From Streptomyces sp. BA2 (GTDB taxonomy: Bacteria > Actinomycetota > Actinomycetes > Streptomycetales > Streptomycetaceae), in the NCBI RefSeq assembly GCF_009769735.1, contig NZ_WSRO01000001.1:310001-374000 (forward strand): DNA of 64,000 bases, written 5' to 3'. Shown piece after piece: positions 3-17,214 of this stretch. The notes under the pieces were generated by a model, which was not told where the DNA came from, ran no database searches, and worked only from the letters and a program-made list of their open reading frames with translations. The position numbers and the translations under genes were made by a program. Positions within the stretch are counted from its first letter, which is position 1; every line of letters begins with the position of its first letter.

Positions 3-500
3 GTGAGTTCACCTGGCGGCGTGTTTTACCGGCAGCCGCGCACAGGTCATGGCGGCCAGACGTTCGCCATGCTCAAATTCCGCACCATGCGGCACGGAGC
101 GCACGCACAGCGAGCCGCCCTCGCGGCGCAGAACGAATCCGGGGGCCAGCTGTTCAAGATCCGCGAAGACCCGCGCGTCACACCCGTCGGACGGATGCTG
201 CGCCGCCTCTCCCTCGACGAGCTGCCGCAGTTGGTCAATGTCGTACGCGGTGACATGTCCCTGGTCGGCCCGCGGCCCCTACCGGTCGAGGACTCCGGGT
301 ATGGCGGCCCGGCACTTGGCCGCCTCGCCATGCCGCCCGGTATCACCGGTCTCTGGCAGGTCAGCGGCCACTCCGAGCTGTCCTGGGACGAGATGGTGGG
401 GCTCGACCTCGACTACGTGCAGCACTGGTCGGTCCGCCTCGACCTGAAGATCCTCGTCCGCACCCTGCCCGCCGTACTCGCCGCGCGCGGCGCCCACTGA
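3..500 (+). CDS. Polyprenyl-phosphate sugar-1-phosphate transferase, C-terminal part
   Basis: This is the C-terminal catalytic domain of a bacterial sugar transferase (PF02397, WcaJ/RfbP type). Such enzymes move a hexose-1-phosphate from a UDP-sugar to undecaprenyl phosphate at the inner membrane face and prime polymer synthesis. Visible family signatures are FYRQPRTG, LKFRTM, the block DPRVTPVGRMLRRLSLDELPQ, the block DMSLVGPRP, and PGITGLWQVSG near the end. The reading frame is open to the left edge, so the N-terminal membrane part lies outside the window and the GTG at 3 is not the true start. It is the first visible gene of the glycopolymer locus. Family assignment is secure; the sugar is unknown. 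Confidence 0.93.
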   Translation: MSSPGGVFYRQPRTGHGGQTFAMLKFRTMRHGAHAQRAALAAQNESGGQLFKIREDPRVTPVGRMLRRLSLDELPQLVNVVRGDMSLVGPRPLPVEDSGYGGPALGRLAMPPGITGLWQVSGHSELSWDEMVGLDLDYVQHWSVRLDLKILVRTLPAVLAARGAH

Positions 501-731: not shown

Positions 732-1706
732 ATGAGAGCGGTAGTGACCGGCGGCGCGGGGTTCATCGGCGCGCATCTGTGCGAGAGGCTTCTGAATTCC
801 GGATTCGATGAACTGCTGTGCCTGGACAATTTCCTGACGGGGCGCCGGGAGGATGTCGAGTTACTGGCCGGGCACCCGGGATTCGAGCTCGTCGACTGCG
901 ACGTCAGCGAGCCCCTCGATGTGGTGGACGAGGCCGACGTGATCCTTCACTTCGCCTCCCCCGCGTCGCCCGCCGACTATCTGCGTCACCCCCTGCAGAC
1001 GCTACGGGTGGGCGCCGAGGGCACCCGCCGCATGCTCGACCTCGCAACCCGTACCAGCGCCCGCTTCGTCCTGGCCTCCACCTCGGAGACTTACGGGAAC
1101 CCGCAGGTCCATCCGCAACCGGAGACGTACTGGGGGCATGTGAACCCGATCGGCCCGCGGAGCTGCTTAGACGAGGCAAAACGATTCGCCGAGGCGACCA
1201 CGATGGCCTACCGACGCAGCCGCGGCACCAACACCGCGATCATCCGGATCTTCAACACCTACGGTCCGCGGATGCGCTCCGGAGACAGCCGCGTGGTTCC
1301 AACCCTCATTCACCAGGCGCTGGACGGTCAGCCTCTGACGGTCACCGGTGACGGCAGCCAGACACGGTCACTGTGCTACATCGACGACCTCATCGACGGC
1401 GTCGTGCGTATGACCGAGTCGGACATCGCAGGGCCCGTCAATCTGGGCAACCCGGAGGAGGTCAGCATGCTGGAACTGGCCCGCATCATCCGCGACATGA
1501 CCGGTACGGGCTCCGACATCGTCTCCGTCCCGCTGCCGCAGAACGACCCGGAGCGGCGCAAGCCCGTCATCAGCAGGGCGCGCACACTGCTCGGCTGGGC
1601 TCCGCGTGTCCCACTCGTCGAGGGCCTGGACCGCACCATCAGGTGGTTCGCCGAACGGGCCGACGCGCAGCTCTCGGATTCGGCGCTGGCAGCGCCCAGG
1701 GGGTGA
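732..1706 (+). CDS. NAD-dependent epimerase/dehydratase (UDP-glucuronate decarboxylase-like) lacking the catalytic Tyr
   Basis: This 324-residue protein is an extended short-chain dehydrogenase that should act on a nucleotide sugar. The Rossmann motif TGGAGFIG (residues 6-13) binds NAD, and the substrate-side blocks ASTSETYG and IRIFNTYGPRM match UDP-xylose synthase/dTDP-glucose dehydratase relatives. The start at 732 puts the nucleotide-binding strand at the N-terminus as usual. The family active site is YxxxK, normally in a context like RSCYDEGKR. Here the sequence is RSCLDEAKR, so the Tyr is Leu146 while Lys150 remains. That Leu is encoded by TTA, the rare bldA-dependent codon (1167-1169). 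Loss of the Tyr usually abolishes or alters chemistry, so the protein may be inactive or work differently. It sits between the priming transferase and the polymerases and probably once supplied a sugar precursor. Confidence 0.85.
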   Translation: MRAVVTGGAGFIGAHLCERLLNSGFDELLCLDNFLTGRREDVELLAGHPGFELVDCDVSEPLDVVDEADVILHFASPASPADYLRHPLQTLRVGAEGTRRMLDLATRTSARFVLASTSETYGNPQVHPQPETYWGHVNPIGPRSCLDEAKRFAEATTMAYRRSRGTNTAIIRIFNTYGPRMRSGDSRVVPTLIHQALDGQPLTVTGDGSQTRSLCYIDDLIDGVVRMTESDIAGPVNLGNPEEVSMLELARIIRDMTGTGSDIVSVPLPQNDPERRKPVISRARTLLGWAPRVPLVEGLDRTIRWFAERADAQLSDSALAAPRG

Positions 1707-2212: not shown

Positions 2213-2345
2213 CCGGTCCAACTACCGGGTCGTTCTCCGCTCCACGAGACCCGGCAGGACGTCTGCAGCGATGTGCCAGGCCAGTCCTGGGCGTACCGCC
2301 AGGCTCTCCATACGGCCGCTTACCGCGTCCGTCCACAGGTCAGTT

Positions 2346-2353
2346 GGAGAGGG
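2346..2353 (+). promoter_or_regulatory. Ribosome-binding site deciding the TTG start at 2362
   Basis: GGAGAGGG lies eight bases before TTG 2362. All five fusion genes of the locus begin [M/L/V]PRF[ST] at this point, so this site favours 2362 over the upstream TTG at 2344. Confidence 0.7.
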
Positions 2354-2361
2354 ATCAGCTC

Positions 2362-4590
2362 TTGCCTCGTTTCAGTGTCATCGTTCCCGTTTACAGAGTG
2401 CAGGGGTACCTGCGGGAGTGCCTCGACTCCATTCTGGACCAGTCGTTCACCGACCTTGAGGTGATCGCGGTGAATGACTGCTCCCCGGATCATTCCGGGG
2501 AGATCCTCTCCGAGTACGCGGCCCGGGACCATCGGGTCAAAGTGATCCACATGAGCGAGAACGTTGGGCTGGGCAAGGCCCGCAACGCCGGAGTGGCCCA
2601 GGCCACCGGTGACTACCTGTTGTTCCTGGACAGCGACGACACTCACACGCCGGGTTCCTTGCGGGCCATCGACGACCGGCTCCGCCTGGCGGGGTTTCCC
2701 GATGTGCTCGTCTTCGACCACGTACGTACGTCATGGAAGGGACGAGGCGGCCGCAGCATGACCCGTGACCTACTGGAGTCGCCGGGCACCGCCACCTTCA
2801 CCATCGCCGAGAACCCGGAGTACTTACATCTCTTCCTGATCGCCTGCAACAAGGCGATCAGGCGAGAATTCTTCGTCCAACACGGCTTTGCCTTCGCTCC
2901 AGGACTGTATGAGGACGCGCCCGTCATCTACGAAGTCATGGCTCGCGCCAAGAGCATCGCGTGCCTGCCACGGGTCTGCTTCGAGTACCGCAACCGAGCT
3001 GGCGCGATCACTCATACCCCCGGTCGTCGGCACTTCGACATCTTCGACCAGTACGCCCTACTGTTCGACCGCATCGACGAAGACCCGGAGTTGGAACCGG
3101 TGCGCGCCGCACTCTTCGAGCGCGCCGTCAATCACTTCCTGGTCACACTGCCTCTCGGCGATCGCGTGCGCCCGGAGGATCGGCCCGAGTTCTACCGCAG
3201 GATCCTGGAGTTCTACCGCCGCCACGCCCCGGCGGGTTTCATCCCGCCGCGGGACGAGCTCCACGCGCAGTTCCAACTGCTCGCTCTCGACAGTCCCTAC
3301 CTCATCTTCCAAGCCGTCGTCTCAGGGCGCAAGCAAGGAGCGAAGGTGGCCACGGGCATCCGAACCGGGGCCGCGCGCAAGGCCCGCGGGTTCACCGGAC
3401 GGGTCGGCGCCACACGACCGTTGGACCCGCATCTCGCGGTGTACGGCGCGCACAACCTCGGGGGCGTGCTGGGTGATCCGGCAGCCGTGTACGCCCAGGC
3501 CGCCGAACTCGCCCCGGACATCCGGGGGGTGTGGGTGGTGCGGCCCGACGCCGCGGAGCACGTGCCGGAGGGGTGCGACTACGTGGTGCGCGGCTCTCGG
3601 GACTACTCCCGCCTCATGGCCCGTGCGACGTACTTCTTCAACGACGGCAACTGGCCCGGTGACGTCATCAAGCGGCCCGGAGCAGTGTGGGTCCAGACGC
3701 ATCAGGGCACGCCCATCAAGCACATGGGAACCGACCTGCTGGGACGGCCAACGGTGATGCCTCGCCACAAGGTGCGTTCGCTCCTGCATCTCTGTGACCG
3801 CTGGGACTACAGCCTCGTGGCGAACGACCACTCCCACCGAGTCTGGGACCGCGCCTACCCCTGCCACTTCACCTCGCTGCCGACGGGCAGCCCCCGCAAC
3901 GACGCGCTCGTCAAGGCACAGCCAGAGCACACGGCGGTGTTGCGGCGGCGCCTCGGCATCCCCACCGACAGCACCGTGGTCCTCTACGCGCCAACGACTC
4001 GCGAGTACCGCAAACGGTATGTGCCGCGCATCGACCTGGAAACCCTCGCCCGTCAGCTCGGCCCCTCCGTCACCCTGCTCGTGCGCCTGCACCCCCGATA
4101 CCGGTCGGACCCCTACCGGCAGCGGGAGCTGCGCGACCTGCACGAGCGCGGCCTGCTCATGGACGTGTGCCACGAACCCGGCGCGCCCCGCGTCGAGGAC
4201 CTGATGCTGGTCGCCGACGTCCTGGTCAGTGACTACTCGTCGCTGCTCTTCGACTACGCCCTCCTGGACCGGCCCATCATCGTGCACGCCGACGACTGGG
4301 ACACCTACCAGGCCACACGCGGTGCCTACTTCGACGTGCGCGAGCAGGCACCCGGCCATGTGACCACGTCCACCGACGAGCTGACGAAGGTCTTGACGTC
4401 CGGCGCCTGGCTGGACAACACCTCCACCGGACGCCGGACAGCCTTCCACCACGCCTATCCCACCTTTGACGACGGACAGGCCGCCGAACGGGTCGTGCGG
4501 CACATCCTCAGGCAGGAGGAGCTCCCCCCGGCCCAAGGCCTGGCGAGGATCCCCGCTCCCGGACGCGGCACAGCCGAACTGTCGCGCTGA
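2362..4590 (+). CDS. GT2 glycosyltransferase fused to TagF-like CDP-polyol phosphotransferase, copy A (HQG class)
   Basis: This is a 742-residue bifunctional protein. The first ~220 residues are a GT2 (GT-A fold) glycosyltransferase: PRFSVIVPVYRVQGYL at the start, VNDCSPD near residues 37-43, GKARNAG, and the metal-binding LDSDD with Asp90/Asp92. The C-terminal half is a CDP-glycerol/CDP-ribitol phosphotransferase-like domain (PF04464, teichoic acid polymerase family): HLAVYGAHN, FFNDGNW, THQGTPIKHMG, LYAPTTREYRK, and SDYSSLLFDYALLDRPII. The canonical HGTP histidine is Gln448 here and a His stands one place earlier (447). Family members act at the cytoplasmic membrane face on a lipid-linked acceptor. 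Residue 155 is encoded by TTA (2824-2826). It is closest in motifs to copy E. The polyol is unknown. Confidence 0.88.
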   Translation: MPRFSVIVPVYRVQGYLRECLDSILDQSFTDLEVIAVNDCSPDHSGEILSEYAARDHRVKVIHMSENVGLGKARNAGVAQATGDYLLFLDSDDTHTPGSLRAIDDRLRLAGFPDVLVFDHVRTSWKGRGGRSMTRDLLESPGTATFTIAENPEYLHLFLIACNKAIRREFFVQHGFAFAPGLYEDAPVIYEVMARAKSIACLPRVCFEYRNRAGAITHTPGRRHFDIFDQYALLFDRIDEDPELEPVRAALFERAVNHFLVTLPLGDRVRPEDRPEFYRRILEFYRRHAPAGFIPPRDELHAQFQLLALDSPYLIFQAVVSGRKQGAKVATGIRTGAARKARGFTGRVGATRPLDPHLAVYGAHNLGGVLGDPAAVYAQAAELAPDIRGVWVVRPDAAEHVPEGCDYVVRGSRDYSRLMARATYFFNDGNWPGDVIKRPGAVWVQTHQGTPIKHMGTDLLGRPTVMPRHKVRSLLHLCDRWDYSLVANDHSHRVWDRAYPCHFTSLPTGSPRNDALVKAQPEHTAVLRRRLGIPTDSTVVLYAPTTREYRKRYVPRIDLETLARQLGPSVTLLVRLHPRYRSDPYRQRELRDLHERGLLMDVCHEPGAPRVEDLMLVADVLVSDYSSLLFDYALLDRPIIVHADDWDTYQATRGAYFDVREQAPGHVTTSTDELTKVLTSGAWLDNTSTGRRTAFHHAYPTFDDGQAAERVVRHILRQEELPPAQGLARIPAPGRGTAELSR

Positions 4591-4681
4591 CTGGGCAGGG
4601 CCCCGTCCTACCCCTCTGACCGACCACCGAGCGGAACCCACCCTTCTGTGTGGGCCCGAATCAGTTTCGAAAGAGACCACC

Positions 4682-6937
4682 ATGCCGCGCTTCAGCATCA
4701 TTGTTCCCACCCATGACGTGTCTGGTCGGCTGTCCGACTGCCTCGAGTCGGTGCTGGCTCAGTCCGGCGACCTCGAACTGCTCACCGTCCTGCCGACTGC
4801 CTCAGGACCAGCCGCCCCCATCGTGGCCCGATACGCCGAACGCGACGCCCGGGTGAGATCGGTGTGCACAGACCCCGCCGACGGTCTGGGTGCCGCCCGC
4901 AATGCCGGAGTTGCTGCCGCCCGCGGTGACTACCTGCTGTTCCTCGACGGCGACGACACCTTCACACCGGACGCGGTACTGCGGATCGACGAACGCCTGA
5001 ACGCGACACACGACCCAGATCTCCTCCTGTTCGATCACGAGCGGATCCACTGGTTTGACGGCGGCCAGGGCTCAGCCCTGGAACGCGTGTGGGCTGGCGC
5101 ACCCGTCGGCGCGTTCTCCCTGAAACAGCACACCGCACTCCCCGATCCACTCCTCCCGGCGTGGAGCGCCGCCTATCGGCGCCAGTTCGCCACACGTCAC
5201 ACCCTGACGTTCGCGCCCGGCATGTTCACCGACTTGAGCTGGTGCCTGCCCGCGGCGCTCCACGCCCGCGATCTCGCCGTGCTCGACCAGATCTGCGTCC
5301 GGCACCATCTCCGTCGCCAGGGGCGCAGAACACATCTGCCGGGGCCTCACCACATGGACTTCCTGGACCAGCTCGACCTGGTCATGCGCCAGGCCAACGA
5401 GTTGGACCCTCCCACCGCCGTGCGGGAACGGCTCTTCCTGCGTCTCTTCCACGAGGTACTGAAGACCGCCGCAGAACCCGCCAGGCTCGGCTCCAGCAGC
5501 CTGCAACGGCAGTTCTTCAAGCGGGCCTCGCACCTGTACCAACTGCACCGGCCCGCCGGGCTCACCGTGCCCAGTGGCTCGCTCGGCGTGCAGCACCGGC
5601 TGCTCGCCGCGAACGCGCACACAGCGTCCCGGGCACTGCGCTCTCTGCGCAGGTCCAGCCGGATCACGCTGCCCGTGCCCAAACGCGCACGGCGCAACGC
5701 GAACCCCCGTACCACGCTGTACAGGACATTCCTCGAAGAGCCGGTCGACGAGAACCTCGCGGTGTACTCCGCCTACTGGGGCCGTGGCTACACCTGCAAC
5801 CCGGCCGCCATCCACACCGCTGTCCGCCGGCTCGCCCCCCACATCAAGTCGGTGTTCCTCGTGACGGAAGACACCCAAGGGCACGTTCCCGACGACGTGG
5901 AGTGCGTCGTGATCGGCAGCGCACGCTACTGGGAGGTCATGGCGCGCGCCAAGTACACCTTCAACAACGTCAACTTCGAGCCCGCGGTGCGTAAGCGATC
6001 CGGCACCGTTCACGTCCAGACCCAGCACGGCACCCCCCTGAAGCGCATGGGGCTGGACACATCCGAGTACCCGGCCGCCTGCTCGACGATCGGCAACTAC
6101 CAGCATCTTCTGCAACGCATCGCGCGCTGGGACTTCAACCTCTCCTCGAATCGGCATTCGACCGAGATCTGGGAACGTGCCTACCCCGGCGGCTACGAAA
6201 CGCTCGACTACGGCTATCCGCGCAATGACGCCTTTTACAACACCACGCTGGCAGGCGTCCAGGAGTTGCGCCGACGCCTGGGCATCCCCGAGGACCGGAT
6301 CGCGGTGCTGTACGCGCCCACCTACCGGGACTACGCCGGCGGGTTCGACGCACGCCTCGACCTCGCCTCGTTCTGCGAGGCACTCGGCGACGAGTTCGTC
6401 GTGGTGCTGCGCGCCCACCACTCCGACGAGGGCTCCCCGGGGCACCTTCAGGCCCTCCACTCCGGAAAACTGATCGACCTGACCGAGCACTACTCGCCGG
6501 AGGAAGTGTGCCTGGTCTCGGACGTGCTGATCAGCGATTACTCGTCCATCACCTTCGACTACGCGAACCTCGACCGCCCGATGGTCACCTATGCCCCCGA
6601 CTGGGAGATGTACCGCGATACCCGGGGCACCTACTTCGACCTGCCCGCCGCGCCGCCCGGACCGTTGGCCCGCACTCCGCAGCAGCTCACCGAGATCTTC
6701 CGCACCGGCGAGTGGAACGGTGACCGCGCCCGCGCCCTGCGCAGCGCCTTCCGTGGCCGGTTCTGCGACTTCGACGACGGGCGGGCTGCCGAGCGGGTCG
6801 TGCGACGCGTGCTCCTCCAGCAGGCCGCCGAGGACATCCCCCCCGTCATCCCGTTGGCGAGCCGCACCCCCGCTCCGGCCGCCGGTCTCGCCCACGCACC
6901 GCTCCGAGAGGTTCCCTGCCATGACGCACACACGTGA
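4682..6937 (+). CDS. GT2-like domain fused to TagF-like CDP-polyol phosphotransferase, copy B (HGTP class)
   Basis: A 751-residue fusion beginning MPRFSIIVPTHDVSGRL at ATG 4682; a longer upstream frame is open but overlaps copy A and lacks homology. The C-terminal half has intact TagF-family motifs: TQHGTPLKRMG with His449, YAPTYRDYAGG, RAHHSD, and SDYSSITFDYANLDRPMV. The GT2 half keeps GAARNAG and LDGDD but lacks the acidic DD/ND-S-PD segment expected near residue 40, which is replaced by TVLPTASG. Nucleotide-sugar binding may therefore be lost or changed, leaving mainly a polyol-phosphate polymerase. It shares the PTHxVSGRL lead and HLRRQGRR segment with copy D. The next gene starts inside its last codons (6921), so translation is probably coupled. 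Confidence 0.87.
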   Translation: MPRFSIIVPTHDVSGRLSDCLESVLAQSGDLELLTVLPTASGPAAPIVARYAERDARVRSVCTDPADGLGAARNAGVAAARGDYLLFLDGDDTFTPDAVLRIDERLNATHDPDLLLFDHERIHWFDGGQGSALERVWAGAPVGAFSLKQHTALPDPLLPAWSAAYRRQFATRHTLTFAPGMFTDLSWCLPAALHARDLAVLDQICVRHHLRRQGRRTHLPGPHHMDFLDQLDLVMRQANELDPPTAVRERLFLRLFHEVLKTAAEPARLGSSSLQRQFFKRASHLYQLHRPAGLTVPSGSLGVQHRLLAANAHTASRALRSLRRSSRITLPVPKRARRNANPRTTLYRTFLEEPVDENLAVYSAYWGRGYTCNPAAIHTAVRRLAPHIKSVFLVTEDTQGHVPDDVECVVIGSARYWEVMARAKYTFNNVNFEPAVRKRSGTVHVQTQHGTPLKRMGLDTSEYPAACSTIGNYQHLLQRIARWDFNLSSNRHSTEIWERAYPGGYETLDYGYPRNDAFYNTTLAGVQELRRRLGIPEDRIAVLYAPTYRDYAGGFDARLDLASFCEALGDEFVVVLRAHHSDEGSPGHLQALHSGKLIDLTEHYSPEEVCLVSDVLISDYSSITFDYANLDRPMVTYAPDWEMYRDTRGTYFDLPAAPPGPLARTPQQLTEIFRTGEWNGDRARALRSAFRGRFCDFDDGRAAERVVRRVLLQQAAEDIPPVIPLASRTPAPAAGLAHAPLREVPCHDAHT

Positions 6938-8702
6938 GGGATCATCTGCTCCGCAGCGGTCGACCATGGCTCGCGTCAACGCCCAGCGGACCGTGTCCAA
7001 CCCCGGCGACCGGGGACACAGCCACGTACGCATCTGGGCCAGGATCGCTGTGCTGGCGCCGGCCGCGGCCATCCTGATCCTGGGCTACGGACATCGCTGG
7101 GCAGGCGACGACTCGCTCATCTACACCCGCGCCGTCCGGCAGATCCTCGCCGGCAACGGGCCGGTGTTCAACATCGGGGAGCGCGCCGAGTCTTCCACCG
7201 GGACACTCTGGCAGTGGCTGGTTGTCCTGGGGCACCTGATCAGCGGTGCTGACCCACTGCTAGTGGCCGTGGTCTTGGGCCTCATCACCACCACCCTCGG
7301 GTACGCGCTGGCCGGGCACGCGGCGCTGCGGCTGCACGGCTCCCGGCAGATGCCTCTTCCGCTCGGCGTACTCCTGGTCCTGCCGGTCAGTGCCTTCTGG
7401 GACTACGCGTCCTCGGGTTTGGAGACGGGTCTGGTCCTGGGCTGGCTTGCGCTGTGCTGGTGGCTCCTTGTCACGACCTCCAGGGACGCTCCGCCCGTCC
7501 GCCACGCGGCGACAGCCGTCGGCTTCGGCCTCGGTCCGCTGGTTCGCCCCGACCTCGGCCTGGTCACCGTGGTCTTCCTGGCCATCTGGCTGGTCCTGCT
7601 CCGCACCGGAATCCTGCGGGCCGGTGGCTACCTCGCCGCGGCTGCCGCGCTCCCCGTCTCGTACGAGATCTTCCGGGCCGGATACTACGGCGTACTGATC
7701 CCTCTTCCCGCCGTCTCGAAAGAGGCATCGGAGTCCCTCTGGGGACGCGGTCTGTTCTACGCCCAGAATTTCCTGCTCCCGTACAAACTCTGGATTCCCC
7801 TCCTGGTCCTGATCGCACTGGCCTTGACCCAGCTGTGGAGGTGGCGGCTGCCCCTGCCCTCCACCACGCTCCTGCGGTGCGCCGCGCCGGTCCTGTCAGG
7901 ACTGCTCAGCATGGTCTACGTGGTGCGCGTCGGTGGGGACTTCATGCACGCTCGCATGCTCCTCCCCGGCCTGTTCCTGATGATGCTGCCGGTCTGGTTC
8001 GTACCGATGAACCGCAGGACGGCAGCCTCCGCCGTGACGGTCGGGGTCTGGAGTCTGTGCTGCCTCCTGCTGTGGCGGCCGCCCTTCGTGTCCCCGCGGT
8101 ACGAGATCTACGACCAACGCCGCGGGTACCAGGGCATCACCGGATCGGCGCACCCGACCACACAAGCGGACCACCTCCGTAATCGGACACCGTTCACCGG
8201 GAGGGTCAAGCGGGCGGCCGGGCCCGATGGCCAGAGGCTGGTCCTGGAAGCCAAGTTCAACCGTTCCTATCTCGAACTGCCGCTGGCCGACCGGTTCCAG
8301 GCCAGCGTGGCCGGCTCCCGGGTGATGCTGGGGCACAATGGCCTCGCCGTGCCGCTGGACGGGCTCTCGATCGATCCCATCGGCCTCTCGTACCCCCTCG
8401 CGGCCCATGTCGAGCGCACGGGCCGGTTCAAAGCAGGCGCCGACAAGCGCCTGAGCCTGCCTTGGATCATCGCCGATTACACGGACCCGGGGGCCCGGCT
8501 GCCCGGTTGGGTCGACGAGAAGGCAGTGGCCGCCGCTCGGCGCGCGCTCTCCTGTGGCCGCCTCGCGGAGCTGCAGAATTCGGTCCGCGAGCCCCTGTCC
8601 GCTGGGCGGTTCTGGAAGAACCTCACGGGCTCGGTGCAGCGCACGACGTTCCGGTTTCCCGCTGACCCAGTGGCCGCGGAGGCATCAGCCTGTCGCGATT
8701 AG
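6921..8702 (+). CDS. Polytopic membrane glycosyltransferase-like protein (GT-C type, AftB-like)
   Basis: A 593-residue integral membrane protein with about eight to ten hydrophobic segments in the first 400 residues and a large soluble C-terminal domain. After the first membrane segment it has WAGDDSLIYTRAVRQILAG followed by GPVFNIGERAESSTGTLW. This resembles the first extracytoplasmic loop of GT-C enzymes such as the mycobacterial arabinosyltransferase AftB, where an acidic pair binds the polyprenyl-phosphate sugar. The expected role is transfer of a sugar from a lipid donor to the polymer outside the membrane. The ATG at 6921 overlaps copy B by 17 bases. The N-terminal ~30 residues before the first membrane span are basic. 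The exact sugar and acceptor cannot be told. Confidence 0.72.
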   Translation: MTHTREGSSAPQRSTMARVNAQRTVSNPGDRGHSHVRIWARIAVLAPAAAILILGYGHRWAGDDSLIYTRAVRQILAGNGPVFNIGERAESSTGTLWQWLVVLGHLISGADPLLVAVVLGLITTTLGYALAGHAALRLHGSRQMPLPLGVLLVLPVSAFWDYASSGLETGLVLGWLALCWWLLVTTSRDAPPVRHAATAVGFGLGPLVRPDLGLVTVVFLAIWLVLLRTGILRAGGYLAAAAALPVSYEIFRAGYYGVLIPLPAVSKEASESLWGRGLFYAQNFLLPYKLWIPLLVLIALALTQLWRWRLPLPSTTLLRCAAPVLSGLLSMVYVVRVGGDFMHARMLLPGLFLMMLPVWFVPMNRRTAASAVTVGVWSLCCLLLWRPPFVSPRYEIYDQRRGYQGITGSAHPTTQADHLRNRTPFTGRVKRAAGPDGQRLVLEAKFNRSYLELPLADRFQASVAGSRVMLGHNGLAVPLDGLSIDPIGLSYPLAAHVERTGRFKAGADKRLSLPWIIADYTDPGARLPGWVDEKAVAAARRALSCGRLAELQNSVREPLSAGRFWKNLTGSVQRTTFRFPADPVAAEASACRD

Positions 8703-9012
8703 TGACTCCGAAGAAGTCAGTAGCAGCGGTGGCGCCATCAAGCGGTGCGGACGGCAGAACGAGTCCCCGGACTTGCTGGTTTCCGAGGGTGCGACGACTC
8801 CAGCTACGAAGGACCGCGGGCACGTGCGCAGTCCGATTCATGGTCCTCGGCCGTGAGCTCGGACAGGGCGCCATCGGAGGCGAACGGTCATGAACCGGTT
8901 CTCACAGGATCGCTTCACTCGTACCCATCCCCCATATGCCACATACGGCGTAACTCGACCGGCCGCCGGGGCGTTTCCGGGCAGTATGCCCGCGCCGACC
9001 CATGGATGTGCC
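8703..9012 (+). other. Spacer before copy C
   Basis: About 310 bases without a convincing gene. The segment CCACATACGGCGTAACTCGACCGG (split here as CCACATACGG and CGTAACTCGACCGG, about 8938-8961) is similar to a stretch near 2192-2210 upstream of copy A, suggesting that both fusions were duplicated with part of their leader. Confidence 0.4.
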
Positions 9013-11304
9013 TTGCCCCGGTTCAGTGTCATCGTGCCCGTGTACAAGGTGCAGGCATATCTGCACGCATGCCTCGAATCCGTCCTCGAGCAATCGTTCA
9101 CGGACTTCGAGCTGATCGTGGTCGACGACGCCTCACCCGACGCATGCGGCGCCCTCATCGACGAGCGCGCGGCCCGTGACACCCGCATGAAGGCCGTCCA
9201 CCTCAAGGAGAACGTCGGTCTGGGCCCGGCCCGCAACGCCGGCATGGAGCGCGCCAGCGGCGACTACCTGATCTTCCTCGACAGCGACGACACCCTCACC
9301 CCCCACTCCCTGCACGCGATCTCCGACCGCATCAAGGAGACCGACGAGCCGGACGTCCTGATCTACGACTACGCGCGCACCTTCTGGTCGGGCGAGGCCG
9401 TGCGCAACCAGTTCGCGAGCCTCCTGAAGGAGGAGGGCCCCGCCCCCTTCCGGCTGAGCGAGAGGCCCGGCCTGCTGCGCCTCCTGATGGTCGCCTGGAA
9501 CAAGGCCTACCGCCGCGACTTCATCGAACGCGAGGGCTTCACCTTCCCGCCCGGCCTCTACGAGGACACGCCCTGGACCGCTCCGGTCCTGATGAAGGCG
9601 GGCTCGATCGCCACCCTCGACCGGGTCTGCGTGCACTACCTCCAGCGCCGCCGCGGCAGCATCCTGCGCACCACGACCCGCAGGCACTTCGAGATCTTCG
9701 ACCAGTACGAGCGGGTCTTCGCGTTCCTCGACGAGCACCCGGAACTCTCGGCGGCCTGGCGGCCCGTCCTCTTCAGGAAGATGGTCGACCACCTCTCGGC
9801 GGTCTTCAGCAAGCGGGACCGCCTCCCGCGCGGCAGCCGCGCCGAATTCCTGCGCAAAGCCCGCACCCACTACCGCCGATACCGCGTCCCCGGCGCCCGC
9901 CCACGCGCCCGCGTCCGCGCCCGGGTCCGGCACGGCCTGGTACGCCTTGGCACGCACCGCACCTACCGGACCCTGTGGACGGCGCTGCGGGTCAGGTCAC
10001 GGGCCAAGCGGTACGCGGCGAGAGCGCGGCACCGCGCCAAGGGTGCCGTGCTGCAACTGCACTACCGCATCCAGCTGCGCCTGCCGCTGCGCGCCGACCG
10101 CGCGGTCTTCTCCTCGTACTGGGGGCGCGGCTACGGCTGCAACCCCGGCGCCCTGGAGGCCGCGGTGCGCGAGCACGCCCCGCACATCCGCACCGCGTGG
10201 ATCGCGGACCCCGCCCACCACCACACCCTGCCGACGGCCACCCGCAGGCTGCGCCCCGGCACGGCCGCGTACTGGAGCGCCCTCGCGCGCTCCAAGTACC
10301 TCGTGAACAACGTCGACTTCGACCGCAGGCTCATCAAACGCCCCGGCCAGATCATGATCCAGACCCAGCACGGCACCCCCCTGAAGCTGATGGGCCTCGA
10401 CCTCCAGGACCGGCCCGCCGCCGCCCGGGGCATGGACTTCGCCGCCCTCCTGCGCAACGCCGACAAATGGGACTACGTCCTGTCGGCGAACCGGCACTCC
10501 ACGCTGGTCTGGGAGCGCGTCTACCCCGCCTCGTACACCACGCTCGAGTACGGCTACCCGCGCAACGACATCTACCAGCGGGCGAGCTCCGCCGACGTGG
10601 CCCGCATCCGCGAGTCCCTCGGCATCCCCCCGGGCGCCGTCGCCATCCTCTACGCGCCCACCCACCGCGACTACCGCCACACCCAGCTGCGCTCCCTCGA
10701 CCTGGAGCGGATGCTGCACAACCTCGGTCCGCGCTTCGTCGTCCTGACCCGCGCCCATCACTCGTACGGGGCGCCCCTGGCGCCCAGCTCGGGCCGCCTG
10801 ATCGACGTGTCGGACCATCCGGACGTCGAGTCCCTCTGCCTCGCGTCCGACGCCCTGGTCACCGACTACTCCTCGCTCATGTTCGACTACGCCAACCTCG
10901 ACCGCCCCGTCGTCCTGCACGCCACCGACTGGGAGGCGTACGAAGCGGCCCGCGGCACCTACTTCGACGTGCGCGAGTTCCCGCCGGGCGCGGTCGCGCG
11001 CAGCGAGGACGAACTCACCGACATCTTCGAATCAGGCCGTTGGCGAGAGGCACGCTCCGCGCAGCTGAGGCACGCGTTTCGGGACAGGTTCTGCCCCTAC
11101 GACGACGGACATGCCGCGGAACGGATCGTGCGACATGTGGTGCTCGGCGAAACGACCCCACGGCCTGCGGTCGTGCCGCTTTCGGAGCGGCACCCCGCGC
11201 CGGCGCCGCGGGCGCTTGACGCCCTGTCCGGATCGGACCCTTCCGGGCTGCCGCTGTCCTCCGCCCGCCTGCTGCAGCGCACTCCCCCCACCCCCGGGAG
11301 CTGA
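9013..11304 (+). CDS. GT2 glycosyltransferase fused to TagF-like CDP-polyol phosphotransferase, copy C
   Basis: A 763-residue fusion. TTG 9013 gives LPRFSVIVPVYKVQAYL, matching the start of the other copies; ATG 8986 and ATG 8890 are in-frame alternatives and cannot be excluded because the ribosome site at 9013 is weak. The GT2 half is complete, with VVDDASPDACG and LDSDDTLTP. The TagF-like half has TQHGTPLKLMG with the canonical His, YAPTHRDYRH, RAHHSYG, and TDYSSLMFDYANLDRPVV. It therefore combines the intact glycosyltransferase of the A/E type with the canonical phosphotransferase site of the B/D type. A very basic linker (about residues 290-350, rich in Arg and Ala) separates the halves and may contact membrane phospholipid. 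Confidence 0.88.
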   Translation: MPRFSVIVPVYKVQAYLHACLESVLEQSFTDFELIVVDDASPDACGALIDERAARDTRMKAVHLKENVGLGPARNAGMERASGDYLIFLDSDDTLTPHSLHAISDRIKETDEPDVLIYDYARTFWSGEAVRNQFASLLKEEGPAPFRLSERPGLLRLLMVAWNKAYRRDFIEREGFTFPPGLYEDTPWTAPVLMKAGSIATLDRVCVHYLQRRRGSILRTTTRRHFEIFDQYERVFAFLDEHPELSAAWRPVLFRKMVDHLSAVFSKRDRLPRGSRAEFLRKARTHYRRYRVPGARPRARVRARVRHGLVRLGTHRTYRTLWTALRVRSRAKRYAARARHRAKGAVLQLHYRIQLRLPLRADRAVFSSYWGRGYGCNPGALEAAVREHAPHIRTAWIADPAHHHTLPTATRRLRPGTAAYWSALARSKYLVNNVDFDRRLIKRPGQIMIQTQHGTPLKLMGLDLQDRPAAARGMDFAALLRNADKWDYVLSANRHSTLVWERVYPASYTTLEYGYPRNDIYQRASSADVARIRESLGIPPGAVAILYAPTHRDYRHTQLRSLDLERMLHNLGPRFVVLTRAHHSYGAPLAPSSGRLIDVSDHPDVESLCLASDALVTDYSSLMFDYANLDRPVVLHATDWEAYEAARGTYFDVREFPPGAVARSEDELTDIFESGRWREARSAQLRHAFRDRFCPYDDGHAAERIVRHVVLGETTPRPAVVPLSERHPAPAPRALDALSGSDPSGLPLSSARLLQRTPPTPGS

Positions 11305-11410
11305 CGTGTCTGAAGCTCCAGGCCCCACGCCCACCCCGCCCATGAAAAGGGCAGGCTCCAGCCGCGGCGCGTGCGCCCAACAGAGAAGCCGACCCCACGA
11401 GGAGGCAGTC

Positions 11411-13684
11411 TTGCCGCGCTTCACCATCATCGTTCCCACCCACGGAGTGTCGGGGCGGCTCGCCGACTGCCCGGGCTCGGTGCTCGGACAGTCCTTCGAG
11501 GACCTCGAACTGATCGCGGTCGTCGACGACATCGAAGGACCGGCGGACCTGTGCTCGACGATCGTCGCCGAGCACGCGGAGCGCGACCCACGCGTACGCC
11601 GCACACAGTCCCCGTCCAGCGGCGGCCTGCCCCGGGCGCGGAACGCCGGGGCAGAGGTGGCCAACGGCGAGTACGTGTTGTTCCTCAACGGCGACGACAG
11701 GCTCGTGCCCCGCACGCTGGCGGCCATCGACGCCCGGCTCGCCGAGACCGAAGACCCCGATCTGCTGTTCTTCGACCATGAGCGGGTGCACTGGTTCGAG
11801 GGCTCCCAGGGCCCAGCCCTCCAGTGGCTTTGGAAGGGCGCTCCGGCAGGCGCCTTCTCTGTGGAGCAGCATGCCGCTCTGCCCGACCCCATGGTGCCCG
11901 CGTTCTGTGGCGCCTACCGGCGGCGTTTCCTGACGGAGCACCGGCTCTCCTTAGCGCCGGGCATGTTCACAGACACGGTGTGGAGCGTGCTGTGCGCACT
12001 GCGGGCCGAGCGGATCGCCGTGCTCGACCGGGTCTGCGTACGTCATCTGCTGCGCAGGCAGGGCGAGCAGAACCGGGGCGCGGGCCTGCACCACCTGGAC
12101 CTGCTAGACCAGTTCGACCTCGCGATGAACGAGGCGGCCGTGCTCACACCACCGGCCTCCGTGCTCGCCCGGACCTTCGGCGGGTTCACGCACGAGGTGC
12201 TCAAGACCGCATCGACGCCCTCGCGGCTGCCCTCCGCGATTCTGCGGCGGCGCTTCTTCCGCCGGGCTTCACGGCTGTACCGGCGGCACCGGCCCGCAGG
12301 GTTCCGACAGCCTTCGGGGCGTCTCGGAGCGCAGCACCGGCTGCTTGCCTCGGGCCACTACGTGGTCTTCTGCGCGTTGCGCGCGGCGGAGAAGAGGCCG
12401 ACCGGATATCTCGCCCCCGCCTTCCAGCGCGCGGGGAGCCTCTGGCAGCGTCGCCGCCACCCCTACCTGACCTTCCTCAGGCGGCCCATCGACGAGCACC
12501 TGGCCGTCTTCTCGGCTTACCGGGGGCGCGGCTACGCCTGCAACCCTGCCGCCATCCACGCCGCGGTCCAGCGCCTGGTCCCACACATCAAGACTGTCTT
12601 CCTCGTCGCCGACGGCAGCGGCCAACAGATGCCGGACAGCGTGGAATGCGTGGTGATCGGCAGCCGCCGCTACTGGGAGGTGATGGCCACTGCCAAGTAC
12701 ACCTTCAACAACGTCGACTTCGAGATGGCGGTCAAGAAGCGCCGTGGCACCGTCCATGTGCAGACCCAGCACGGCACGCCGCTCAAGCGGGTGGGCGTGG
12801 ACCAGGTGGGCTTTCCTGCCGCTGCCGCCGCCGCGGGACCACTCGGCAGACTCCTGGAGCGGGTGGACGGCTGGGACTTCATTGTCTCCTCGAACCACCA
12901 TTCCACCGAGGTCTGGCAGCACGCCTACCCGGGAGCGTACGAGAGTCTCAATGTCGGCTATCTCCGCAACGACACCTTCTACAGCGCGACGGCCGACGAT
13001 GTGTCCACCATCCGCAAGCGTTTCGGCATCTCCGAGGGCAAGACCGCCCTCCTGTACGCGCCGACCCACCGCAACTACCGCACCGGTTTCGCACCACAGC
13101 TCAACCTGCCCGCCTGGTGCGACGCCCTCGGTGAGGACTTCGTGGTGCTGTTGCGCGCCCACCACTTCGACGAGGGTTCGGCGGGGCATGAACGGGCCGT
13201 GCACTCCGGCAAGTTGATCGACTTGACGGAGCACCGCTCCGCCGAGGAAGTCTGCCTGGCAGCCGACGCCCTGATCACGGACTACTCGTCAATCATGTTC
13301 GACTACGCCAACCTCGACCGGCCGATTGTCCTGTACGCCGATGACTGGGACATCTACCGCGCGACCCGCGGCGTCTACTTCGACCTGCTCGCCGAGCCGC
13401 CGGGCGCCGTGGCCCGCACGCAGGACGAACTGACGCGGATCTTCCGCGAGGGCGAGTGGGACGGGGAGCTTTCGGGGCGGCTGCGGGCCGCGTTCCGTGA
13501 GCGGTTCTGCGACCTGGACGACGGGCTCGCGGCGGAGCGGGTGGTGCGGCGGGTGCTGCTCGGCGAGCCGGCCGACCGGCTGCCGCCGATCGTGCCCCTG
13601 AGCGGGCGCGTTCCCGCGCCCGCCCCGCCCCGTGTCCCACCGCAACGTCCCGCACCCAAGGGTGTCCCGCCGTGCCACATCTGA
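11411..13684 (+). CDS. GT2-like domain fused to TagF-like CDP-polyol phosphotransferase, copy D (HGTP class)
   Basis: A 757-residue fusion starting at TTG 11411 with a strong GAGGAGG ribosome site at about 11399-11405. It begins LPRFTIIVPTHGVSGRL. The phosphotransferase half is canonical: TQHGTPLKRVG, YAPTHRNYRT, RAHHFDEG, and TDYSSIMFDYANLDRPIV. The glycosyltransferase half has VVDDIEGPAD in place of the usual DD-S-PD and LNGDD in place of LDSDD, so the first Asp of the DxD metal motif is Asn. It resembles copy B along its length (HLLRRQGEQN, RGYACNPAAIH). Residue 181 is encoded by TTA (11951-11953). The C-terminal tail is Pro-rich. Likely a polyol-phosphate polymerase with an impaired or divergent sugar transferase half. 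Confidence 0.87.
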   Translation: MPRFTIIVPTHGVSGRLADCPGSVLGQSFEDLELIAVVDDIEGPADLCSTIVAEHAERDPRVRRTQSPSSGGLPRARNAGAEVANGEYVLFLNGDDRLVPRTLAAIDARLAETEDPDLLFFDHERVHWFEGSQGPALQWLWKGAPAGAFSVEQHAALPDPMVPAFCGAYRRRFLTEHRLSLAPGMFTDTVWSVLCALRAERIAVLDRVCVRHLLRRQGEQNRGAGLHHLDLLDQFDLAMNEAAVLTPPASVLARTFGGFTHEVLKTASTPSRLPSAILRRRFFRRASRLYRRHRPAGFRQPSGRLGAQHRLLASGHYVVFCALRAAEKRPTGYLAPAFQRAGSLWQRRRHPYLTFLRRPIDEHLAVFSAYRGRGYACNPAAIHAAVQRLVPHIKTVFLVADGSGQQMPDSVECVVIGSRRYWEVMATAKYTFNNVDFEMAVKKRRGTVHVQTQHGTPLKRVGVDQVGFPAAAAAAGPLGRLLERVDGWDFIVSSNHHSTEVWQHAYPGAYESLNVGYLRNDTFYSATADDVSTIRKRFGISEGKTALLYAPTHRNYRTGFAPQLNLPAWCDALGEDFVVLLRAHHFDEGSAGHERAVHSGKLIDLTEHRSAEEVCLAADALITDYSSIMFDYANLDRPIVLYADDWDIYRATRGVYFDLLAEPPGAVARTQDELTRIFREGEWDGELSGRLRAAFRERFCDLDDGLAAERVVRRVLLGEPADRLPPIVPLSGRVPAPAPPRVPPQRPAPKGVPPCHI

Positions 13685-13780
13685 GCGAGCAGCCATCTGA
13701 GCCGCCCAGGCTCCACACGCGCCTGCCGCCGCCCAGTGCACCACCCACGTCCCCGCCCATCACGACCCGTGGAAAAGCCC

Positions 13781-16024
13781 GTGCCCCGTTTCAGCATCAT
13801 CGTCCCCGTCCACAGGGTGCAGGGCTACCTGCGTGCGTGCCTCGACTCGGTCTTGACGCAGTCTTTCGCCGACTTTGAAGTCATCGCGGTCGACGACTGC
13901 TCGCCCGATCACTGCGGCGCGATCATCGACGAGTACGCGGCGCGCGATGCGCGGGTCCGGGCGGTCCACCTTCCCGCGAACGTCGGCCTCGGGCGTGCCC
14001 GCAATGTCGGTGTCCACGACGCCACCGGCGACTACCTGCTCTTCCTTGACAGCGACGACAGCTACACGCCGGGCGCGCTCGCGGCCATCGATCAACGGCT
14101 TGCCGTCACCGAAGATCCCGATGTGCTGGTGTTCGACCACGTGCGCACGTACTGGTGGGGCCGCGCCGGGCGCAGCACGACGGCGGACCTGCTCGCCGCC
14201 GCGGGCAAGGACACCTTCGACATCCTCACGAGCCCCCAGTACCTGCGCCTGTCCCCGGTGGCCTGGAACAAGGCCTACCGCCGCGACTTCTTCACTGGCC
14301 ACAAGTTCGCCTACAAACCAGGTCTTTACGAAGGCGCTCCGATCACCTTTCAGGCGTTGGTCGCCGCCCGCCGTATCGGCTGCCTGGACCTGGTATGCAT
14401 CGAACACCGGCAGCGCAGGCAGGGCGCGATCACCCAGACCTCGGGCCGCAAGCACTTCGACATCTTCGCGCAGTACGCCGGTCTGTTCACGTTCCTCGAC
14501 GAGCACCCGGAGCTCGACGCGGCCCGGCCGCTGCTCTTCGAGCGGATGATCAATCACTTCCTGACGACGCTCTTGGCCACCGCATGCGTACTGCCCGGCG
14601 ACCGCGGCGACTTCTACCGCATGATGGTGCGGTTCTACCGGCGCTACAAGCCGGCCGGCTTCGCCCCGCCCGACGACCGCTACCGCGTCCAGTGGAGGCT
14701 CACCGCGACGAGCCCCTACGCCGTCTTCCAGGCCTGGGCCCTGGCCGATTCAGTACGTTCCGCCGCCCGCCGCAAGAAGCATGAGCTGCGTAAATCGGCC
14801 GCTCGCAGGGCCAAGCGCACACTCGCTCGGATCGAGCGCAGGCGTCCGCTCAACCCACATCTCGCGGTGTACTCGGCGTTCTCGCACCGCGGTGTGGCCG
14901 GCGACCCGGCCGCGATCCAGCAGGCGGCCGGGACGCTCGCCCCGCATGTCCGCCCGGTGTGGGTAGTGCGGCCCGAGGCCGTGGAGCAGGTGCCGGAAGG
15001 CGTCGAGTTCGTCCTCCCTGGCACCCCGCGCTACCACCGGGTGATAAGCCGGGCCACGTACTTCTTCAACAACGTCAACTGGGCCCCGGGCCTGGTGAAA
15101 CGCGAAGGGCAGATCCACGTCCACACCCACCAGGGGACGCCGCCCAAACGCATGGGTGCCGATCTCCTGGGCCGTCCCGCAGCGATGTATCACCTCGACA
15201 TCGCCGCGCAGCTGCGGCGTTCGGACCGCCGGGACTACAGCCTGGTGTCCGGTCGGTACGCCCAGCGGGTCTGGGATCGCGCCTATCCGTGCCGCTTCAC
15301 CTCGCTGGCGACCGGCGCGCCACGCAACGACGTGCTCGTGCGGGGCGACGTGCTACGCGCGGCAGCCGTGCCCACCCGCCTTCGCATCCCCGATGGCAAC
15401 ACCGTCGTGCTCTACGCACCGACACCCCGCGACCACAGCAAATGGTATGAGCCACGGGTGGACTTCGAGCGGCTGGTGCGCGAGCTCGGGCCCGGCGTCA
15501 CGCTGCTCGTGCGGCTGCACCGGCAGTACGCCCGCGCCGCCGCCCGCAGCCTGCAACTGCGCGACCTGGAGCAGCACGGACTGCTGCGCGACGTCACCGA
15601 CGAGAGGTGCGTCGAGGACCTGATACTGACCGCCGACGCCCTGGTGACCGATTACTCCTCGCTGATGTTCGACTACGTCCATCTGGACCGTCCGGTCATC
15701 ATCCACACCGACGACTGGGCGGCCTATCAGGCGGCACGCGGCACGTACTTCGATCCGCTCGCCACGTCGCCGGGTCATGTCACCACCCGAACCGCTCAGT
15801 TGGCGCATCTGTTCGCCTCGGGGGTGCGGCGGGACGACCGTTCCGCCGCCCTGCGGTCCGACTTCCGCGCACGGTTTTGCGAGTACGACGACGGGGACGC
15901 GGCCGCTCGCGTGGTCTCCCGGGTCATGCTCGGCCAGGACCCCCCGCTGCCGTCCCTCCCCCAGCAGAGCCTCGACCAGCACCACACCTCCCCGCTCTCC
16001 CCCCTCCGGAACGGCACGCGATGA
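13781..16024 (+). CDS. GT2 glycosyltransferase fused to TagF-like CDP-polyol phosphotransferase, copy E (HQG class)
   Basis: A 747-residue fusion. GTG 13781 gives VPRFSIIVPVHRVQGYL; GTG 13769 is four codons upstream and also possible. The GT2 half is complete: VDDCSPDHCG and LDSDDSYTP. The TagF-like half reads HTHQGTPPKRMGADLLGRPA, so the canonical His is Gln451 with His450 beside it, exactly as in copy A, and the partner block is WDRAYPCRFTSLATGAPRND. Copies A and E thus form one active-site class. The stop codon overlaps the next start in ATGA (16021-16024), so the two are co-translated. Function is inferred as polyol-phosphate or glycosyl-phosphate backbone synthesis. Confidence 0.88.
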   Translation: MPRFSIIVPVHRVQGYLRACLDSVLTQSFADFEVIAVDDCSPDHCGAIIDEYAARDARVRAVHLPANVGLGRARNVGVHDATGDYLLFLDSDDSYTPGALAAIDQRLAVTEDPDVLVFDHVRTYWWGRAGRSTTADLLAAAGKDTFDILTSPQYLRLSPVAWNKAYRRDFFTGHKFAYKPGLYEGAPITFQALVAARRIGCLDLVCIEHRQRRQGAITQTSGRKHFDIFAQYAGLFTFLDEHPELDAARPLLFERMINHFLTTLLATACVLPGDRGDFYRMMVRFYRRYKPAGFAPPDDRYRVQWRLTATSPYAVFQAWALADSVRSAARRKKHELRKSAARRAKRTLARIERRRPLNPHLAVYSAFSHRGVAGDPAAIQQAAGTLAPHVRPVWVVRPEAVEQVPEGVEFVLPGTPRYHRVISRATYFFNNVNWAPGLVKREGQIHVHTHQGTPPKRMGADLLGRPAAMYHLDIAAQLRRSDRRDYSLVSGRYAQRVWDRAYPCRFTSLATGAPRNDVLVRGDVLRAAAVPTRLRIPDGNTVVLYAPTPRDHSKWYEPRVDFERLVRELGPGVTLLVRLHRQYARAAARSLQLRDLEQHGLLRDVTDERCVEDLILTADALVTDYSSLMFDYVHLDRPVIIHTDDWAAYQAARGTYFDPLATSPGHVTTRTAQLAHLFASGVRRDDRSAALRSDFRARFCEYDDGDAAARVVSRVMLGQDPPLPSLPQQSLDQHHTSPLSPLRNGTR

Positions 16025-17214
16025 CCGACACGACAGCCCCCATTCCGGGGCTGGTCACCCAACCGGGGCAGATTCTGCCTCTGGAAGCATCCAACAACCT
16101 TTCCCTCTGGGCCCGCTGGCGGGCCGACGGCGCAGCCATCGCGTTGGGCACCGCCCTCATCACCTGGCACGGCGCCCGTTTCGGGCAGTGGGTGGTCGAC
16201 GATGCGGCCATCACCTTCGCCTACGCGCGCAGCATCGACGAAGGACTTGGACCCGTACAGCAGCCGGGCGCTGAGCCGGGCGAGGGCTACTCCAATCCTG
16301 CCTGGCTCGGTCTCCTCGTCGCCGGCAGGCGCCTTGGCCTTTTCGACCATCGAACCATCTTCGACGTGCCGGATCTGGTGCTGTATCCCAAGATGCTGGG
16401 AGTGCTGTGCACCGTCGGGATCCTGGTCGCGGTCGCGAGCGCGGCTCGAAGCCTGGTGTCCCGCTCCTGGTTGGTCACGGGCCTGGCGGGCTTCCTGCTC
16501 GCCGGCAATGTGTCGTTCGTTGCCTGGATGTTCTCCGGCCTGGAGGGCCCGCTGTACGCCCTGCTCGCCACCATCCTCGCGGCCCTGCTCATCCGGGCGG
16601 CCACTGGCGTCCCGCACGCTCCCGACGTCGCGGTGGCCTCCGGCCTGCTGGCCCTGGCCGCCGCGTTGACCAGGCCGGACGGTGCGGTCCTCGCGGGCGC
16701 ATACCCCCTTCTGCTTCTTCTGTCGCTGCGGCGCGGGGAGCTGTGGCCGCGGGTAGGGGCGGCGGCCATGAGCCTGGCAGTCTTTACCGTGCCGTACGCG
16801 GCATTCCTCGCCTGGCGTTACGCGTTCTTCGGTCGCCTGGCGCCCAACACGGCCGTGGCCAAGGCGCAGGAGCCGCCGGACGCCGAGCTGTTCACGCGGA
16901 CGACCGGCGGCCTCCTCACGTTCATGGGCTGGGGCGCCGTGCTCCTGACCGCCGCGCTCGTCGGGGCGGTCCTCGCCCGTCGCACGATGCCCCGCACCGC
17001 GATGGCCGCCGTCCTGCTGCCGCTCACGCTGACCCTTTGCGCGTTCGGCATCCTGGAGCCGGACTGGATGGGAACGCATCGGTTCGCAGCTCCCGTCTGG
17101 CCATTGGGAGGCTTGGCTCTGACGCTCAGTGCCGTGAACCTGGCCGAGCGGAGCACGCCCACCGCGGGCACGACTGACGGCGGCGGTGGCTGGGTGCGGG
17201 CCCAACGCCGTTGA
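16021..17214 (+). CDS. Polytopic membrane protein, GT-C glycosyltransferase-like
   Basis: A 397-residue protein starting at ATG 16021 in a 4-base overlap with copy E. It has about eight hydrophobic segments. After the first segment it carries VVDDAAITFAYARSIDEGLG and GEGYSNPAWLGLL, the acidic loop layout of GT-C enzymes, and the same architecture as the protein encoded at 6921-8702 although without the large C-terminal soluble domain. It probably transfers a sugar from a polyprenyl-phosphate donor to the glycopolymer outside the membrane. Two such proteins in one locus, each coupled to a different fusion gene, suggest two decoration steps. Substrate cannot be read from sequence. Confidence 0.68.
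   Translation: MTDTTAPIPGLVTQPGQILPLEASNNLSLWARWRADGAAIALGTALITWHGARFGQWVVDDAAITFAYARSIDEGLGPVQQPGAEPGEGYSNPAWLGLLVAGRRLGLFDHRTIFDVPDLVLYPKMLGVLCTVGILVAVASAARSLVSRSWLVTGLAGFLLAGNVSFVAWMFSGLEGPLYALLATILAALLIRAATGVPHAPDVAVASGLLALAAALTRPDGAVLAGAYPLLLLLSLRRGELWPRVGAAAMSLAVFTVPYAAFLAWRYAFFGRLAPNTAVAKAQEPPDAELFTRTTGGLLTFMGWGAVLLTAALVGAVLARRTMPRTAMAAVLLPLTLTLCAFGILEPDWMGTHRFAAPVWPLGGLALTLSAVNLAERSTPTAGTTDGGGGWVRAQRR

Follow-up and report, generated by a model that had tools for sequence, protein, structure and literature searches.

A Streptomyces branch of GT2-TagF fusion proteins with a shifted histidine at the phosphotransferase site

What becomes of a TagF-type phosphotransferase site when its first histidine stands one residue away from the usual place? 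This question is raised by a locus of Streptomyces sp. BA2, located at positions 310001-374000 of a 602-kb contig (NZ_WSRO01000001.1) in a genome of 10.0 Mb. The whole stretch of 64,000 nucleotides that was analysed is here referred to as the window. It contains five reading frames on the + strand, here named A to E, each of which combines an N-terminal GT2 domain (PF00535) with a C-terminal Glyphos_transf/TagF domain (PF04464). In A and E the histidine is shifted. We consider the chances about even that these two copies represent a branch of Streptomyces GT2-TagF fusions in which the phosphotransferase site would be re-wired instead of lost, and active.

The motif at the catalytic site

The PF04464 scores of A-E ranged from 333 to 415 bits in a profile search (curated cut-off 22.1). 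The TagF fold was assigned, as was a GT-A fold domain N-terminal to the TagF-like domain. The start codons are uncertain. The class names used in the following list are derived from the tree described below; pLDDT is the predicted local distance difference test.

2344..4590, + strand: copy A, E-type GT2-TagF fusion (alternative start 2362; AlphaFold2 mean pLDDT 90.5)
3700..3705, + strand: HQ codons, His453-Gln454 of A, at the positions of TagF W443-H444
4682..6937, + strand: copy B, D-type GT2-TagF fusion, QHGTP
9013..11304, + strand: copy C, C-type GT2-TagF fusion with QHGTP (the start may be 9013 or 9034)
11411..13684, + strand: copy D, D-type GT2-TagF fusion, QHGTP (AlphaFold2 model, mean pLDDT 85.9)
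13736..16024, + strand: copy E, E-type GT2-TagF fusion (alternative starts 13769, 13781)
15128..15133, + strand: HQ codons, His-Gln of E, at the positions of TagF W443-H444

In the alignment, TagF of S. epidermidis, a poly(glycerol phosphate) polymerase (PDB 3l7i-3l7m), read QTW443-H444-GTP. The corresponding stretch was QTQHGTP in B, C and D, QTHQGTP in A and HTHQGTP in E. With PDB 3l7i as reference, His453 and Gln454 of A aligned with Trp443 and His444, and His583 with His584. A and E thus differ from TagF by His at W443 and Gln at H444 (TagF numbering is used from here on), whereas His444 is kept in B, C and D. The H584 equivalent is kept in all five copies. Within the window the HQGTP codon pattern was found at 3700 and 15128 only (0.02 expected from shuffling) and the QHGTP pattern at 6023, 10366 and 12767 only (0.06 expected). 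The title of PDB 3l7m gives H548A, yet the changed residue sits at 584; the number in the title looks transposed.

A sequence-only reading of this DNA had described five tandem GT2-TagF fusions with HQGTP in A and E and QHGTP in B, C and D. The frames exist at that place on the + strand, both domains were matched, and the motifs were borne out by the alignment to TagF. Its residue numbers (Q448 in A, Q451 in E, His449 in B) are obtained if the frames start at 2362, 13781 and 4682, and the blocks DLLGRP and AYPCxFTSLxTGxPRND were indeed confined to A and E among the five copies. The five copies do lie in one locus; however, they are not strictly tandem, as an AftB-like gene (6966-8702) interrupts B and C.

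Conservation of the shifted histidine

PF04464 domains were collected by searching proteins with two queries, A and a chromosomal copy carrying His at both 443 and 444 (here named HH copy; the best 120 matches listed of each). Genome searches at genus and phylum level added further domains, as did 80 named Streptomyces loci that an E-type alignment had matched; both search peptides of that alignment lie within the GT2 half. This resulted in 604 matches, 580 of them with at least 320 residues and 532 of them distinct. Recruitment was by overall similarity and without the motif, with a bias toward sequences related to A and to the HH copy.

A FastTree tree divided the distinct domains into E-type (196), C-type (85), D-type (91) and others (160). 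A and E are E-type, B and D are D-type and C is C-type. The split between A/E and the remaining copies, previously described as two classes, is real, but B/D and C are separate, so that three classes have to be distinguished.

Position 443 of the E-type was His in 195 domains and Gly in one, and position 584 was His in 196/196. Position 444 was Gln in 156, Arg in 19, Leu in 10, Glu in 6, Val in 3, and His and Asp in one each. The earlier statement that Gln takes the slot of the His is correct for A and E, but relatives also carry Arg, Leu, Glu, Val or Asp; it is the preceding His that is nearly constant (195/196). The combination of H443, a non-His residue at 444 and H584 was present in 194/196 distinct E-type domains. 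In the D-type, 443 was Gln in 90 and His in one, and 444 and 584 were His in 91/91 each. The C-type kept His at 444 in 47/85 and at 584 in 75/85 domains. Among the 160 other domains 443 was His in 135 and Trp in 21, 444 was His in 159 and Asn in one, and 584 was His in all.

Most of the rest of the E-type site was conserved as well. The Arg of PRND, the Arg of RxH, the Asp and Tyr of DYSS and the Asp of FDY were each found in 196/196 domains, and the first Ser of DYSS in 194/196. Fourteen further positions were diagnostic for the E-type (at least 93% in the E-type, less than 10% in each other group). Residue 611 was Glu in 189/196 E-type domains, compared with His in 85/85 C-type and 90/91 D-type domains, and His672 (186/196) is diagnostic for the E-type, too. 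A chance origin of HQ was rejected by the pattern counts and by its recurrence in 194/196 domains, and simple decay is disfavoured by the conservation of H443, H584 and other core residues. Given these counts and the conserved trio setting (see below), we do not regard the shift as noise, and it does not look like decay.

Alternatively, the same counts could mean that the TagF domain of the E-type has become a pseudo-phosphotransferase, which would fold and bind nucleotide or polymer while the GT2 half works and the D-type provides phosphotransfer in trans. The loss of H444 in 195/196 E-type domains agrees with this, as do the H444N form (3l7j) among the crystallised TagF variants and the inactivity of His mutants of TagF-like enzymes. 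The adjoining C-type, moreover, heads that way in many species. However, the relaxed conservation of the remaining catalytic set that is expected of a pseudo-phosphotransferase was not seen: H584 and the RxH Arg, PRND Arg and FDY Asp are invariant in the E-type (the second Ser of DYSS, however, is mostly Ala, see below), whereas 10/85 C-type domains have lost H584. Additionally, a His without a role would hardly persist at 195/196. We consider this explanation unlikely, and return to it with the GT2 half.

Phylogeny and distribution

Trees were built with positions 443-444 omitted. Compared with a quick tree, 7 long branches were removed and 11 rows added for a careful tree. The E-type formed one clade in both (support 100 in the quick tree; 100/100 and 100% of 200 bootstrap trees in the careful one). 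The D-type was one clade (100/100) and the C-type together with HH relatives another (100/99). The minimum number of changes in both trees was 3 to 4 for position 444 and 7 to 8 for position 443. An HH intermediate as ancestor of the E-type is plausible.

HQ might also be an accident of two diverged duplicates without meaning for the class, given that A and E share a locus and might be copies of each other. However, the form occurs in 194/196 E-type domains, the TagF domains of A and E are only 51% identical, and both belong to different E-type subclades. We regard this explanation as already refuted and extremely improbable. A recent A/E duplication was likewise rejected: A grouped with P0007 and P0008 (100/100) and E with P0040. 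B grouped with the D-type gene of locus L059 from Streptomyces sp. B-S-A6 (100/99), whose contig is as long (211690) as the contig of P0008. A-B therefore seems to be an old E-type/D-type pair in its own right, not a duplicate of D-E.

At least 15 of 60 other genomes of the genus searched carry the E-type. A class-level search added 11 newly fetched genomes with the E-type, every one from the genus of the window. Outside this genus, no E-type was seen among the 30 loci fetched in that search, which covered 394 genomes; however, the source name of one E-type protein, P0017, begins with 'Actin'. Thus the A/E form recurs in many Streptomyces, as the sequence-only reading had proposed to check, and its forms do not mix without phylogenetic structure, the outcome that would have spoken against it; the A/E form is a single clade.

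The C-D-E trio

A full-length E-type domain was present in 74/80 Streptomyces loci fetched with the E-type query, and 64/80 showed the order C-D-E. In these 64 loci the D-type read QH..H without exception, and the E-type H-(not H)..H in 62 (the exceptions are L094 with GD and L135 with HH). Both TagF His residues were present in the C-type of 31. Homologues of neighbouring genes were sought in the 80 loci, which reach up to ~9 kb to each side (tblastn, E up to 1e-15). ABC (ATP-binding cassette) importer homologues were frequent near the trio, with the binding protein in 67/80 and the permeases in 69/80 and 71/80 loci, whereas homologues of the AftB-like gene were found in 14/80. The trio is accompanied by a conserved importer of its own upstream, and the remaining neighbours in the window are for the most part not regular partners of it.

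The GT2 half and division of labour

The GT2 residues differ between the classes. In the E-type the DxD Asp residues were present in 190/190, and the Glu and Asp of the Glu-Asp pair, of which we take the Asp to be the GT2 base, in 190/190 and 188/190. The respective numbers for the C-type were 85/85, 84/85 and 83/85. In the D-type the DxD Asp residues were found in 72-74 of 74 domains, Thr replaced the Glu in 73/74, and an Asn-Lys pair occurred in none. Both GT2 motifs are intact in copy A; in copy C all GT2 motifs and both TagF His residues are present. Judged by these residues, the C-type would have a sound GT2 half and an often decaying TagF domain, the D-type a kept TagF His pair and an altered GT2 half, and the E-type a sound GT2 half and a re-wired TagF domain.

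Two C-type relatives, L195 and L199, read THR-GTP and THE-GTP, with H584 lost and the GT2 motifs intact. They were rejected as cases of a convergent His shift, since both lack H584; they look decayed.

The capsule polymerases Cps1B and CslB resemble A-E in carrying GT-A and TagF-like domains in a single chain (PMC5974469). For such fusions, single-domain mutants were described to complement each other in trans (PMC5974469). A division of labour would therefore be workable, and we infer one among the members of the trio. Trans-complementation and the near-invariant GT2 residues of the E-type would equally suit a pseudo-phosphotransferase; however, the GT2 site of copy E is itself doubtful, as Gly replaces the putative base Asp there, and a GT2-only role suits this copy poorly.

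Cps1B and CslB differ from A and E in that the latter are without the first of two essential His residues. Additionally, A-E are proteins of Streptomyces type and their locus contains a gene for a wall ligase of the LytR-CpsA-Psr (LCP) family. TarS, TarP and RmlT, the glycosyltransferases of wall teichoic acid, differ from A-E by the fusion of the latter to a TagF domain. SCO2997, a TagF homologue of S. coelicolor, is reportedly linked to sporulation; it is like A-E in being a Streptomyces TagF homologue.

Genes surrounding the five copies

A-E and their surroundings read as a cell-wall glycopolymer locus. Upstream of A-E are a WecG/TagA-family gene, epimerases and a polyprenol-phosphate sugar-phosphate transferase. 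The neighbouring genes were:

21..500, + strand: part of a polyprenol-phosphate sugar-1-phosphate transferase (PF02397)
744..1706, + strand: NAD-dependent sugar epimerase/dehydratase, upstream of A-E
6966..8702, + strand: AftB-like GT-C membrane glycosyltransferase between B and C, 578 aa, 8 hydrophobic segments
16021..17214, + strand: 397-aa membrane protein without Pfam family, 6 hydrophobic segments
17349..18272, + strand: methyltransferase (PF13578)
20083..21129, + strand: LCP family glycopolymer-to-wall ligase, downstream of A-E

Read from the coordinates, the PF02397 frame seems to start before the window (L039, from 19409 on), adjoining the WecG/TagA-family gene. The AftB-like gene matched NF041481 with E 1.3e-82 and 277.9 bits against a cut-off of 1050 and is thus a distant relative only. 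The gene at 16021 has a 536-aa relative (58% over 334 aa) in the chromosomal locus of the same genome, and the methyltransferase probably decorates the polymer.

The linkage-type genes upstream (WecG/TagA family, PF02397) bring up another possibility. The E-type might catalyse a different single-step phosphotransfer (priming, linkage or capping) which requires no His base at 444, with His443 binding the acceptor. A precedent is Cps7A, a priming transition transferase of the PF04464 family in which the H444 position is not His; H444 of TagF superimposes on its Tyr94 (PMC11666461). This fits a linkage role for the E-type, and the 14 class-diagnostic positions suggest an altered pocket. The sequence-only reading had suggested two chemistries or acceptors, perhaps one polymerase class and one capping or linkage class, which is still hypothetical. 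Cps7A differs from the E-type, being a two-Rossmann protein of 380 residues without a GT2 domain; it has Tyr where the E-type has Gln, Arg, Leu, Glu, Val or Asp, and the accessible text mentions no compensating His. However, WecG and PF02397 homologues were found in 0/80 related loci (tblastn as above, ~9 kb flanks), so the E-type does not rely on having these linkage genes nearby. We rate such a single-step role as quite unlikely.

A 125-aa cytidine/deoxycytidylate deaminase-like protein (PF00383, 37.4 bits vs 25) is encoded at 18645-19022, between the methyltransferase and the LCP gene. A D5_N/DUF5906 primase-helicase-type protein at 41179-42684 on the - strand suggests a mobile element or replicon gene on the contig. 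A protein search of a plasmid collection with A gave 1158 records, all below 60% identity and at most 32.7% among the best 10 of 1158.

In total, the genome has 11 PF04464 domains, A-E and six more within 3.86-3.90 Mb of the 9.4-Mb contig. By motif, none of these six is D- or E-type. Copy C (window 8911-11147) shares 98.1% DNA identity over 2238 bases with a C-type gene of the 9.4-Mb contig; this identity suggests a recent exchange between the two contigs. Behind that chromosomal gene come a methyltransferase-like gene and a glycosyltransferase. The chromosomal locus also encodes a 1170-aa GT2-TagF protein (L042, 6199-9711) that reads QTWNGAP. Here Asn occurs naturally at the H444 position, the same change as in the crystallised H444N variant of TagF. 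In P0128 a PF04464 domain with 90% identity to the chromosomal HH copy is part of a 1044-aa protein with a CHAT domain (PF12770), an unusual pairing.

Putative donor and wall polymer

The setting differs from that of TagF, because A-E carry an N-terminal TarS-like GT domain and the genome contains no enzyme of the TagD type, which provides cytidine diphosphate (CDP)-glycerol, above the cut-off. The best TIGR01518 match reached 61 bits (cut-off 165.4); the respective open reading frame scored higher as RfaE domain II, likewise below cut-off. A divergent enzyme is conceivable. The IspD family is represented by one strong (222.5 bits) and one marginal protein (30.7 vs 27), and there are three CTP_transf_like proteins. 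With no TagD above cut-off and these IspD counts, CDP-glycerol or CDP-ribitol seems less likely as donor. The QHG of B, C and D is shared with GT-A/TagF-like capsule polymerases and has been associated with hexose-phosphate transferases, in contrast to the WHG of glycerol-phosphate polymerases (PMC11666461). Streptomyces walls were described to contain teichulosonic acid and minor poly(diglycosyl 1-phosphate) (PMC11481543). Taken together, these points favour sugar-1-phosphate transfer. However, the chromosomal PF04464 copies include WHG forms, so that a divergent CDP-glycerol route is conceivable.

Proposed mechanism and points against it

If the E-type site is active, the shifted His443, perhaps together with Glu611 or His672, would replace H444 as base. 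The trio would share the building of one phosphodiester-linked wall glycan. Here the D-type would be the dependable phosphotransferase, and the E-type would add a second, chemically distinct phosphodiester, with another acceptor or in a linkage step. As donors, nucleotide sugars (for sugar-1-phosphate transfer) would be more probable than either CDP-glycerol or CDP-ribitol. Export would follow, and then LCP-mediated attachment of the polymer to peptidoglycan. In its fullest form the proposal is tentative: the base may have moved one residue along the chain via an HH ancestor, giving a fixed class (H443, E611, H672) that makes a second phosphodiester beside a QHG partner and a partner that is losing its TagF domain. 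One bifunctional enzyme might thus have been split by duplication into three specialised enzymes.

Several points weigh against a re-wired, active site. To our knowledge, activity has been reported for no E-type member, and neighbouring residues in a chain often face opposite directions. The second Ser of DYSS is Ala in 152/196 E-type domains, although it is Ser in A and E. A and E in turn depart from their class at other sites, e.g. residue 498 is Glu in 90% of the E-type, His in A and Gln in E. By Nei-Gojobori dN/dS (the ratio of nonsynonymous to synonymous rates), constraint on the TagF domain was slightly weaker than on GT2 in 20/30 disjoint E pairs; the comparison of all pairs gave the reverse, and dS is seemingly compressed by high G+C, so that we give this ratio no weight. 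Mutation of the first His ends polymer synthesis in characterised TagF-like enzymes, as described for H587A of Cps1B and H612A of Cps7D, in both of which Ala at the two His residues blocks synthesis (PMC5974469). That H587 and H612 are equivalent to H444 of TagF is our own reading.

The phylogeny and the locus add to these points. The quick tree nests the E-type among HH forms, while the careful tree leaves its sister group unresolved. The division of labour is less clean in this window: copy E has Gly at the putative GT2 base Asp (2/190 in the E-type, the other being the GD exception L094), and in copy D Asn replaces the first DxD Asp (1/74 in the D-type). Homologues of the 16021 gene were found in 4/80 loci and of the methyltransferase in 3/80. 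Since LCP, WecG and PF02397 homologues were found near the trio in 0/80 loci (tblastn, E up to 1e-15, ~9 kb flanks), wall attachment is without support from synteny.

Significance

The annotation names among the matches listed were CDP-glycerol glycerophosphotransferase, bifunctional glycosyltransferase/CDP-glycerol:glycerophosphate glycerophosphotransferase and plain glycosyl transferase; none of them flags a changed site. In a literature search on TagF-like enzymes, Streptomyces wall polymers and the migration of catalytic residues, none of the titles listed described this arrangement, a weak negative as the search covered open papers only.

If the H444 rule holds, a class present in many Streptomyces would use another base, catalyse another reaction, or not perform the reaction for which it is named. 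Each of these options would alter the interpretation of wall-polymer loci in Streptomyces. In the C-D-E trio, one domain exists side by side in an intact form, a re-wired form and, in many species, a decaying form. This natural comparison makes the question of the catalytic base testable.
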